Part shown: positions 4,728 to 11,464 of the stretch, one piece after another | How the letters are laid out: each line of letters begins with the position of its first letter | Numbering within the stretch: the stretch's first letter is position 1 | Assembly: GCF_014192375.1 (NCBI RefSeq) | Contig: NZ_JACHXV010000011.1 | Span: forward strand, 1 to 64,000 | DNA: 64,000 bases | Source: Endobacter medicaginis | Lineage (GTDB): Bacteria; Pseudomonadota; Alphaproteobacteria; Acetobacterales; Acetobacteraceae | Direction: 5' to 3' | Position numbers and translations under genes: made by a program | The notes under the pieces: model-generated | The model's input: only the letters and a program-made list of their open reading frames with translations | Told to the model about the DNA's origin: nothing | Databases searched by the model: none

Positions 4728-4893
4728 CGACCGATCCGCTCCTGTCTCGATGCCGCGACAACGCCTCCGGAAGGTGCGAGGTTTGCACCCGCGGAGATAG
4801 GTCGGCTTGTTGCGTATCTTCACCATGGCATGCTAGAGGCCGCGCGGAAGCGACCGGTCCGGTGATCCGGACGCAACAAAACAAGATGGAAAC

Positions 4894-5498
4894 GTGCGCG
4901 TGGCCCCGGGCGGAACAGAAGCGGCGATCTCGACCCCGACCAGCACTCTCGACCCGGCGAGCGACGGCCTCGCCGAGCGTTATGCGCGCGCGCTCTACGC
5001 CCTGGCTGACGAGCGCCGCGAGGTCGATGCCGTCGCCGACCAGATCGCCTCCCTCGGCCGGCTGATCGACGAGAGCGCCGACCTGCGCCGCCTGCTGGCC
5101 AGCCCCCTGGTCGATATCCGCGAAGGAGCGAAGGCGCTGGACGCCGTGCTCGCCGCGCAGGGCTTCGGCAAGACCGTCACCGATTTCGCCGGCGTCGTCG
5201 CCGCCAATCGCCGCCTGCCCGAACTGCGCCGGATCGTGAGCGCCTTCGCCGCCCTGCTCGCCGCGCGCCGCGGCGTGGTGGCGGCCGATGTCACCTCCGC
5301 CTTCCCGCTGACCGACCTGCAGCGCACCCAGTTGCGCGCCCGCCTCACCGAGGCCGGCTATTCGAAGGTCGATCTGCGCGAGACGGTCGATCCCGCCCTG
5401 CTGGGCGGGCTTTCCTTGCGCATCGGCGCCCGCCTCTACGACGCCACCATCAGATCGCGCCTGCAGCGCCTGCAACACGCCATGAAGGGAGCCGCGTG

Positions 5499-9404: not shown

Positions 9405-9405
<1 letters not shown>

Positions 9406-9809
9406 TGCCGGTCGCGCTCCAGATCGTCAGCCCCGCGAAGGAGCTGCTGGCCCGCGATGTCGACATGGTCGTCATTCCGGGCTCGGAGGGCGATCTCGCC
9501 GCGATGGAGGGCCACGCGCCGCTGATCACCCTGCTGCGCGGCGGCGTGGTCGAGCTGCACGAGGGCGGCTCGGTGACCGACCGGTTCTTCGTCTCCGCCG
9601 GCTTCGCCGAAATCACCCCCGAGCGCTGCACGGTGCTGGCCGACGAGGCGACCCCGCTCGCCGAGCTGTCCCGCGCCGAGGGCGAGACGCGTCTTGCGGC
9701 GGCCCAGAAGGCCTATGACGACGCCGACAAGTCCGACATCACCACCTTGCTGCCGTTGCAGGACGCGGTCCTGTCGGCGCAGGCCTGGGTCGAGACCGCG
9801 CAGGCCTGA
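9405..9809 (+). CDS. atpC: ATP synthase F1 subunit epsilon
   Basis: The 134-residue epsilon subunit has an N-terminal beta-sandwich. The evidence is LQIVSPAKELLARDVDMVVI, PGSEGDLAAMEGHAPLITLL and FFVSAGFAEITPERCTVLADEA. A helical C-terminus follows. It completes F1 and modulates ATP hydrolysis. It is the last gene of the operon; two strong stem-loops follow directly. Start ATG overlaps atpD. Confidence 0.95.
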
Positions 9810-9900: not shown

Positions 9901-10223
9901 TGGTGCGGACGGCGGGTTTCGAACCCGCACTTCCTGTCGGAAAGCAGATTTTCATCCCACTTCGGCTTTCGCCGCCGCCACCCGAAGGCAGCGTTCGTGG
10001 GCTGGACTGTCCCTTCGCCATCACCCGGAATCCGGGCCCCAGGCGCCACCCGTCCAGTCTCTACACCTTCCCGCCATGGCGACGGGCTTGGCTCGGGATC
10101 GGCATCGGACCACCGGCCCGGAAGCGTTCCCCGACTTTGAGCGGTTCTACGTCGCGCGTTTCCGCGCGCGCACTCCAATTGGGTCGTTAAAGTCTGCTGC
10201 GTCTACCGTTTCGCCACGTCCGC
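9901..10223 (-). tRNA. tRNA-Leu(UAA), split by a group I intron
   Basis: On the minus strand the 5' exon (10223-10190, 34 nt) begins GCGGACG and holds the D arm GCGAAACGGTAGACGC and the anticodon stem strand GCAGA followed by CTT. The 3' exon (9952-9901) begins AAAATCTGC, has a long variable arm (TTCC/GGAA), the T arm GCGGGTTCGAAACCCGC, then CGTCCGC, A and an encoded CCA. Acceptor strands GCGGACG/CGTCCGC and anticodon strands GCAGA/TCTGC pair perfectly. Joining the exons gives loop CUUAAAA with anticodon UAA and an 86-nt class II leucine tRNA. It starts 24 bp after the YgjP-like gene and could be cotranscribed with it. Confidence 0.93.
9953..10189 (-). ncRNA. Group I intron in the tRNA-Leu anticodon loop
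   Basis: The 237-nt insert splits the anticodon as U/AA. Group I hallmarks are present. The 5' exon ends in U and the intron ends in G. A guide sequence GAGU (at 10175-10172) pairs with exon ACUU through a G-U at the splice site. A CGCGCG-GAAA-CGCGCG hairpin follows (10168-10153). The R-like GAGACTGGA and S-like GACAGTCC segments form P7 through GACUG (10059-10055) and CAGUC (10009-10005). No open frame suggests a homing endonuclease, so it should be a self-splicing ribozyme only. The position matches the tRNA-Leu(UAA) introns known from cyanobacteria and plastids. Subgroup (probably IC3) is inference. Confidence 0.88.
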
Positions 10224-10247: not shown

Positions 10248-10982
10248 TCAGCCGATTCGCAACAGGGCCGGCCCCTGTTCGCGCAGCCAGCGTTCGGCCA
10301 TCAGCCGATTCGGGGTCAACCGGTCCACCAGCCGCCAGAACGCCTCGCCATGGTCCATGTGCGACAGATGCGCCATCTCGTGCGCCACCACATAGTCCTG
10401 CACCGTGGGCGGCGCCATCACCAGTCGCCAACTCAGCATCAGGGTGCCATCTGCGGTGCAACTCCCCCAGCGCGACCGCACATCCTTGATCGACAGCCGC
10501 CGCGGCCGCCGCTCGAGACCCGCGCCAATCCGGCCGACATGCACCGCCAGCCGCCGCCGCGCCTCGGCACGCAGGAAATCCGACAGCCGGCGCGGCAGGA
10601 ACTGCGCCTCCCCGCTGACCACCAGCATGCCGGCGTCGACCCGCACCCCGCCGCGCGACAGCGGATCGTGACGAATCCGATGCGTCAGCCCGTCGAGGGG
10701 GATGCACACGCCGTCGGCGAAATCGATCCGGCTCGGCAGCGCCGCCAGCCGGCCGGCAATCCAGTCCGAATGCCGTCCCAGCAGCGCCCGGCCCGTGGAC
10801 CGCGATGCCCGCGGCGGCAGGGTGACCACCACATGCCCGCCGCTCGGATCGATGCGCAGCGACAGCCGTCGCGCCCTGCGGCTGACCCGCCAGCGCACCG
10901 GCACCGGTCCGCAGCCCAGTTCGATCACCTCGACGGCATCGTCGGCATCCCGTCGCAGCGGTGTTGCCGGCGGGCGGCTCAC
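10248..10982 (-). CDS. YgjP-like metallopeptidase-fold protein (DUF45/M48-type)
   Basis: The 244-residue protein ends with the zinc signature [16 protein letters not shown] and, before it, the conserved block [22 protein letters not shown]. That is the C-terminal pattern of the YgjP/DUF45 family of predicted metal-dependent hydrolases. The N-terminal half ([18 protein letters not shown]) also fits. The GTG start at 10982 overlaps the stop of the upstream cysteine-cluster gene (GTGA); a much longer upstream frame would only overlap that gene. The substrate is unknown in the family. Confidence 0.85.
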
Positions 10983-11464
10983 CGCGCGCTGGCCGGCTTG
11001 CGTGCGCGCAGTCCCACACCCTTCGGCGTGCGTGCCGGCCAGGCGACGATATGGTCTTCCAGCATCCCGGCCTCGCGTTCGTCGATCGCGCGGCCGCGCA
11101 CCGAGACCCCGGCCTCGTGCACGCTCTCTGCCCGGCCGGACACCAGCGGGTGCCACCAGGCCAGCCCGCGTCCTTCGGCGACGCACCGGTAGGCGCAACT
11201 CGGCGGCAGCCAGTCGATGGTGGCGAGCTCCGCCGGGGTCAGCCGCACGCAGTCCGGGACCTTCGCCTGACGGTTGGCATAGTCCGAACAGCGGCAGCTC
11301 TGCGTATCGAGCAGGCGGCAGGAGACCTCGGTGTAGAGGATGTCGTCATCCTCGTCGCGCAGCTTGTGCAGGCAGCAGCGCCCGCAGCCATCGCACAGCG
11401 ACTCCCACTGCGCATCGGTCATCGCGTCGAGCGGCGTCGTCCGCCAGAAGGGAAGGTCGACCAT
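10979..11464 (-). CDS. YcgN-family cysteine-cluster protein
   Basis: The 161-residue product has the CxxCxxCC metal-binding signature ([12 protein letters not shown]), a further [17 protein letters not shown], and the C-terminal [17 protein letters not shown] typical of the YcgN (UPF0260) family. These proteins are thought to bind iron or zinc through the cysteine cluster. Length is normal. It overlaps the YgjP-like gene downstream, and the two are often neighbours in alphaproteobacteria as far as I recall. Confidence 0.85.

Follow-up and report, generated by a model that had tools for sequence, protein, structure and literature searches.

The locus raises the question of whether two short tRNA-like pieces in a 64-kb window (the whole stretch of DNA that was analysed) are the halves of a single gene and, if so, what separates them and where it came from. 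The best explanation, to which we give a probability of about 0.93, is a self-splicing group I intron in a tRNA-Leu(UAA) gene, inherited together with the gene, with relatives that relocated to other sites. The sequence, boundaries, fold, covariation, relatives and guide/exon match reported below were computed, and no second copy of the gene was found.

The split tRNA-Leu(UAA) gene and the fold of its intron

Read from the sequence, a tRNA-Leu(UAA) gene lies on the minus strand (10223..9901) and is split by a group I intron. The features of the locus are as follows:

10223..10190, minus strand: 5' exon of tRNA-Leu(UAA), nucleotides 1-34, the last being U34 (34 nt; from sequence)
10189..9953, minus strand: group I intron, first base U, last base G (237 nt; R1 195.3 bits, RF00028 22.0 bits)
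9952..9901, minus strand: 3' exon of tRNA-Leu(UAA), A35 first, CCA encoded (52 nt; from sequence)
10175..10172, minus strand: internal guide GAGU (G15-A16-G17-U18), pairing with exon A31-C32-U33-U34
10144..10139, minus strand: 5' strand of P3, CCGCUC, partner 10051..10046 (model alignment)
10051..10046, minus strand: 3' strand of P3, GGGUGG (model alignment)
10059..10055, minus strand: 5' strand of P7, GACUG, partner 10009..10005 (model alignment)
10009..10005, minus strand: 3' strand of P7, CAGUC (model alignment)
10248..11198, minus strand: neighbouring YgjP-like metallopeptidase gene (Pfam PF01863, E=7e-47)
9405..9809, plus strand: atpC (ATP synthase epsilon), convergent with the tRNA gene (Pfam PF02823)

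As the preliminary description had warned, the gene is easily missed: ARAGORN without introns found no tRNA in the 64-kb window, and Rfam at gathering scores found nothing there. Under relaxed Rfam settings, a partial tRNA match appeared at 9904-9966 (22.1 bits, below cut-off), together with an Intron_gpI match at 10190..10039 (22.0 bits, E=0.0019 for the 500 nt searched), which starts at most one base from the 5' end of the intron and stops at 10039. The latter score stays below the curated 50-bit cut-off of RF00028, which is the cut-off of one model and not a defining property of the RNA. A covariance model, R1, was built from an alignment of 60 related introns from which the window's own was left out. 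It scored the window intron at 195.3 bits (E=2.8e-67), and its only other match in the 64 kb up to E=10 reached 4.1 bits, so that the covariance-model check proposed beforehand came out in favour of a group I intron. The intron-aware tRNA search, proposed as well, was successful in part: ARAGORN in intron mode (-i) returned the right span and the length of 237 nt, but with the wrong anticodon, tRNA-Phe(GAA), and the junction in another register. As the annotation tools used here miss both intron and tRNA at their usual settings, genomes can appear to be without essential tRNAs. According to the tRNAscan-SE 2.0 paper, 36 genomes seem to lack an fMet or Ile2 gene owing to group I introns (PMC8450103).

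The junction was examined by excision, allowing registers with a U before the insert and a G at its end, and the restored tRNA was read by ARAGORN. Removal of 237 nt restored Leu(UAA) with 5/5 stem pairs, the best standard reading, the runner-up being His(AUG) (233 nt, 4/5 pairs). The joined tRNA-Leu(UAA) measures 86 nt, with an anticodon stem of 5 bp and, as originally claimed, UAA in a 7-nt loop (CUUAAAA). Insertion is between U34 and A35, the site of Leu(UAA) introns; position 9953, the last of the intron, is G on the minus strand, as in group I introns, and P1 contains the U.G pair (U34.G15). By eye, intron positions 1-3 add three further exon-guide pairs. The start after U34, the terminal G, the guide with its U.G and the R and S elements pairing as P7 had all been part of the preliminary description, and were recovered in the sequence and in the covariation of P7.

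Covariation was assessed on the 60-intron alignment without the window intron, with P3 written as a pseudoknot. Standard pairs filled 96.5% of 3,039 cells, against 83.5% in shuffled alignments, and changes on both sides were found in 35 of 51 pairs, a number as high in 0/500 shuffles. When the structures were slid by 1-3 columns, 29-46% were paired. P3 was paired in 99.7% of cells and showed changes on both sides in 4/6 pairs, with C-G in 30 and U-A in 29 of the 60 sequences at column 49/177. P7 was paired in 100% of cells, its sole variable pair being A-U in 39, G-C in 19 and U-A in two. In addition, P4, P6 and P8 were paired in 100% of cells each and distal P6 in 91.9%, the least-paired helix being distal P2 (84.3%). 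A helix proposed by RNAalifold (columns 48-51 with 296-299) was replaced by P3. The intron has the P3/P7 pseudoknotted core with P4-P6 and P8 by which group I is recognised, and its putative subgroup is IC3.

In such a fold, the transcript of the window gene would form the ribozyme core, with guide GAGU holding exon ACUU through U34.G. An external guanosine bound in P7 would cut after U34, and U34 would then attack behind the terminal G, joining the halves into the 86-nt tRNA-Leu. We infer this reaction, its rate in the cell and the way in which the introns moved, and the window intron is probably self-splicing. It is too short for a homing endonuclease gene, its open frames reaching at most 79 codons. 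As for the surroundings, a YgjP-like neighbour was also detected by tblastn near the intron-bearing tRNA-Leu L002 of genome G008, a comparison that concerns one locus among those examined, some of the others being cut by contig ends.

The tRNA complement of the window genome (3.63 Mb, rated 100% complete with 0.64% contamination) was searched for other copies. At E up to 10 it gave 45 tRNA matches, one of them the window's half, and 39 uninterrupted anticodon types by ARAGORN on 30 + 14 matches. The uninterrupted Leu genes were CAA, UAG, GAG and CAG, and the Arg genes ACG, CCG and UCU; no Leu(UAA) or Arg(CCU) was present among the 39 types, and the second such intron of this genome interrupts its Arg(CCU) gene. 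Since Ile(GAU) and Ala(UGC) were likewise absent, the list is incomplete, and a second Leu(UAA) gene may lie in an assembly gap. Across seven window genes, UUA accounted for 0/243 Leu codons and UUG for 13; demand for tRNA-Leu(UAA) may be low, and selection for splicing could thus be weak. That disuse of UUA would agree with a pseudogene whose intron has decayed into a relic. In the model alignment, however, the core helices are preserved; the two tRNA halves pair, the gene encodes its CCA, and the search of the genome brought up no further Leu(UAA) gene, all of which makes a relic very improbable.

Relatives and origin of the window intron

The window gene found some match in 28 of 60 genomes. 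Leu(UAA) with an intron across the query was present in eight of the 60, seven of them from the window's own family, and others had intronless Leu(UAA) genes. A pattern search of a named genome collection returned at least 118 stretches. Among the matches listed, 109/118 stretches (110 introns) were assigned to Leu(UAA) with both exons, and nine were left unused as incomplete, without a convincing 5' site or due to chance (L047, L071, L102, L108, L125, L131, L140, L145 and L146). With the class taken from the record name, the 110 introns among the matches listed comprised 62 from Alphaproteobacteria (at least six orders), 25 from Cyanobacteria, 11 from Acidobacteriota, seven from other Pseudomonadota, two from Vulcanimicrobiota, one from Chloroflexota and two without class. 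One of the seven from other Pseudomonadota is a cyanobacterial-type tRNA-Leu intron on a MAG contig binned as Tatlockia (L091:2553-2788), which is probably misbinned. Also, two tRNA-Leu(UAA) genes with introns lie some 3 kb from each other on a single acidobacterial contig (L139:1750-1984 and 4881-5119).

The class was surveyed with R1 under stricter filters (E<=1e-6) in 385 evenly drawn alphaproteobacterial genomes, of which 49 gave matches. The wider distribution offered in the preliminary description as one of two possibilities agrees with these counts, with Leu(UAA) introns in at least 62 listed Alphaproteobacteria and in 20/385 evenly drawn genomes. On the other hand, its view that such an intron is exceptional in proteobacteria is not supported: they are present in at least six orders of Alphaproteobacteria, and Vepritskiy et al. 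reportedly described a gammaproteobacterial tRNA-Leu(UAA) intron of about 231 nt in 2002. The latter, likened to the window intron by description, lies in the same gene of a proteobacterium, but of another class. The listings and abstracts searched, which leave out most subscription journals, contained no account of Leu(UAA) introns from Alphaproteobacteria, nor of introns with this core in Thr, Lys or Leu(CAA) genes; within that literature, both could tentatively be considered new.

The window intron adds a member to the known tRNA group I introns, which PMC4033280 describes from cyanobacteria and a few alpha- and betaproteobacteria. The tRNA-Arg(CCU) introns of Alphaproteobacteria (Agrobacterium, Bartonella BbgpI) are of the same family, 16 of 22 Arg rows falling in the window's 46-row clade, but interrupt another tRNA after U36 and carry guide GGG, not GAG. 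BbgpI, likened to the window intron by description, is shown to self-splice in PMC7717549. The tRNA-Ile(CAU) intron of Azoarcus and other betaproteobacteria, likewise compared by description, is also a small anticodon-loop group I intron, but in another tRNA; crystal structures exist, according to PMC3984707. Two further reports concern neighbouring subjects: tmRNA introns occupy four T-loop sites in 21 phyla (PMC11915505), and 'group I introns' of 22-49 nt are claimed for cyanobacterial Arg, Gly and Lys tRNAs in PMC5733544, inserts that at such lengths are far too short for this group I core.

A tree was computed from 164 introns, the P1 columns being removed; the second tree kept 8 of the 25 cyanobacterial rows and L091, labelled a gammaproteobacterium but with a cyanobacterial intron, and left out L247 and duplicates. 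The window intron fell in a clade of 46 rows (99/90, with a bootstrap that had not settled). It holds 30 Leu(UAA) and 16 Arg(CCU) introns, every one from Alphaproteobacteria, and the Arg rows form one group inside it (99/99). The anticodon stem GCAGA was present in 30/30 Leu genes of this clade and in 1/87 outside, so exon type and intron travel together. The window intron would have been passed down along with its tRNA gene, within a lineage that is widespread in Alphaproteobacteria.

Recent acquisition of the intron by horizontal transfer, with a cyanobacterium or plastid as donor, was considered, as cyanobacterial tRNA-Leu(UAA) introns are like the window's in gene, U34/A35 site, core and compactness. 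An AU test of a clade joining the window intron and the cyanobacterial ones gave p=0.413, at a log-likelihood 13 lower, and with 201 columns this test has little power (even a set worse by 56 log units had p=0.176). However, among the introns compared, core identity of the window intron was 84% to the best alphaproteobacterial Leu intron and 77% to the best acidobacterial one, against 57% to the best and 54% on average over 8 cyanobacterial rows. Cyanobacterial introns mostly form a separate clade, the main one with a support of 100/99 and a long branch, and, among the matches listed, their S element was GUGCAGAGACU in 24/25, whereas GUGUAGAGACU was found in 62/62 alphaproteobacterial introns. 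In the comparison with cyanobacteria suggested at the outset, identity set the two apart, and the AU test did not reject a joint clade. The window intron is not rare, and we give hardly any weight to a recent cyanobacterial origin, which core identity disfavours. The idea of transfer in the preliminary description survives for the whole tRNA gene, given the exon type that goes with the intron and the plasmid copy described below, and not for a recent import from cyanobacteria.

As a further alternative, the intron may recently have jumped between the tRNA-Leu gene and the tRNA-Arg(CCU) gene of this genome, in either direction. This would be in line with the presence of both introns in the genome, with the clade shared by Leu and Arg introns of the class (99/90) and with the identity of the own Arg intron to Leu intron L033 (79.6%), close to that to its best Arg relative (79.9%). 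Nevertheless, the two copies are 72% identical in the core, whereas the window intron reaches 84% with Leu introns elsewhere. This comparison speaks against the own Arg intron as the source, which we consider most unlikely. Inheritance of the intron with its tRNA-Leu gene remains the preferred reading.

Host tRNA genes and guides of the family

The host of each intron found in the survey was established by excising it and asking ARAGORN which tRNA returned. ARAGORN often gave several readings per intron, among which an order of preference was set; five assignments were corrected and five junctions set by hand, and cut loci were judged by eye. Of 59 places in the 49 genomes, 55 were assigned (three of them, cut by a contig end, by eye), one was the second half of a 693-nt intron, and L242, L249 and L250 were left unassigned. 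Hosts and insertion sites were distributed as follows, the guide matches being those of the 70 introns in the guide test described below:

Leu(UAA), after 34: 20 of 49 genomes, one cut by a contig end; guide match 24/24
Arg(CCU), after 36: 10 of 49 genomes; guide match 21/21
Thr(GGU), after 36: 7 of 49 genomes, two cut; guide match 7/7
Lys(UUU), after 35: 5 of 49 genomes; guide match 5/5
Leu(CAA), after 33: 4 of 49 genomes; guide match 2/4
Lys(CUU), after 35: 4 of 49 genomes; guide match 2/4
Lys(UUU), after 34: 3 of 49 genomes; guide match 3/3
Thr(CGU), after 36: 2 of 49 genomes; guide match 2/2

Six of the 49 genomes had introns in two different tRNA genes. Intron length ranged from about 200 to 430 nt in the assigned alphaproteobacterial set, with one of 693 nt. 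This long intron, in a tRNA-Leu(UAA) gene (L247:300-992, genome G273, rated 8% contaminated), contains, on the opposite strand, an HNH-like frame (Pfam HNH_3, E=6e-4, below cut-off). Two other places were peculiar: L254:267-471 (G023) matched R1 at 196.9 bits without an assigned host tRNA, and its ligated loop would be non-standard; L242:301-530 (G044) was a second Leu-type match (116.5 bits) in which no 5' exon could be recognised, the other one in that genome being intact.

The guide test compared the guide, in the register of the model, with exon positions -1, -2 and -3 in 70 of 81 model matches; the 11 left out were two duplicates and nine that were unassigned, cut or second halves. The guide fitted the last three exon bases in 66/70 introns at eight sites, and the result was the same with typed exon ends and with exons read from each locus. 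The guide base opposite -1 was G in 70/70 assigned introns, U at -1 having been a requirement of assignment. The GAG guide of Leu(UAA) can also form three pairs with either Lys(UUU) exon. The GGG guide of Arg fits the Leu(UAA) exon by means of G.U, whereas GAG and the Arg exon do not match. As some guides fit other hosts, the direction of moves should be read from the tree alone with caution.

Eight sites, each reached once, imply seven moves as the logical minimum; the fewest host/site changes on the 164-intron tree were 15. This tree placed Arg in three groups (16, 4 and 2 rows) and split Thr(GGU), Lys(UUU)-35, Lys(CUU), Leu(CAA) and Lys(UUU)-34 into two or more groups each, which suggests repeated moves to one site. 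In AU tests, a single clade was not rejected for Arg (p=0.516, with a slightly better likelihood) or Thr(GGU) (p=0.53, likewise better), nor for Lys(UUU)-35 (p=0.412) or Leu(CAA) (p=0.176). Several independent invasions of one host gene were therefore not retained, and, as single host clades are not rejected (p 0.18-0.53), no number of moves per site is claimed.

On balance, we lean towards a wider history in which one family would have come to occupy at least eight anticodon-loop sites in seven tRNA genes through reverse splicing and re-tuned guides, and an Enterovirga-like tRNA-Leu gene would have been caught beside aac(3)-IId and carried onto gammaproteobacterial plasmids. Reverse splicing would be the most likely route by which relatives of the window intron moved to other anticodon loops, their guides being re-tuned to the new exons. 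By its title, a paper of Paquin et al. from 1999 is said to deal with horizontal transmission and transposition of alphaproteobacterial Arg(CCU) introns. With one ribozyme in eight host sites and matching guides, guide re-targeting and reverse splicing become directly testable. The surprise of the locus is a wide multi-host intron family that usual annotation misses, with one member on plasmids near a resistance gene.

Copies on plasmids and viral contigs

With the window gene as query, 1,276 of 72,556 plasmids gave matches of about 78%, which spanned no less than 80% of the gene in 1,261 plasmids. Among 5,426 complete E. coli genomes, 626 had a match, with 577 places lying on plasmids and 80 on chromosomes. 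The pCTX-M3 copy plus 60 bases matched 1,280/72,556 plasmids, 1,255 over at least 80% and 1,273 at no less than 99% identity. By genus, the copy was present in Escherichia (493), Klebsiella (365), Salmonella (117), Acinetobacter (79) and others. R1 scored the plasmid copies at 215 bits. No feature was annotated at the copy in 15/15 E. coli RefSeq rows listed, nor in one RefSeq region read; the plasmid gene table holds no RNA genes, and its blank at the copy carries no meaning. Literature containing both 'tmrB' and 'group I intron' was not found among the sources searched.

Four plasmid regions were read, with the copy at L270:6001-6299 (pCTX-M3), L271:4001-4300, L272:5001-5299 and L309:4001-4299. 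In three of the four, a small hypothetical gene flanks it on one side and a tmrB-like ATPase gene plus aac(3)-IId on the other, with ISCfr1 or IS26 nearby in two regions and unnamed transposases in the third; in the fourth, its surroundings are cut by the start of the record. The aac(3)-II gene alone was found in 2,340 plasmid records (1,550 at 99% identity or above). An attempt to show that aac(3)-IId came from the same donor as the tRNA was unsuccessful: relatives were present in 4 of 397 genomes from the order of Enterovirga, at 68-73% DNA identity, and no tRNA-Leu was found within about 1.5 kb on each side of them.

Among the loci compared, the nearest relative of the plasmid copy was the chromosomal Leu(UAA) gene of Enterovirga aerilata (Hyphomicrobiales, Methylobacteriaceae; 95.4% over 302 nt), followed by those of a Bradyrhizobiaceae MAG (95.0%) and a Novosphingobium MAG (93.4%). 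Judged by these identities, the whole tRNA-Leu gene on the plasmids is alphaproteobacterial, and its closest counterpart is the gene of Enterovirga. In Enterovirga's family, 40/298 genomes gave matches at E<=1e-30, one of them (G888) over 467 nt at 91%, up to about 165 nt upstream of the tRNA. In most of the listed matches that span the 3' exon, similarity ends within a few bases of the tRNA 3' end. Joins at tRNA 3' ends are a product of integrase-borne islands, and by analogy the join seen here may stem from such an island. The plasmid copy is a molecular tag: it shows that a tRNA gene with its intron passed from the Alphaproteobacteria into the Gammaproteobacteria, and it indicates which lineage supplied one or more flanks of the aac(3)-IId segment.

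Finally, ARAGORN in intron mode read a tRNA-Leu(UAA) gene with an intron of this kind in viral contigs L262, L267, L260 and L258, the second of which showed three model matches, one of them in tRNA-Arg(UCU), and a partial match was present in Gordonia phage Daredevil.
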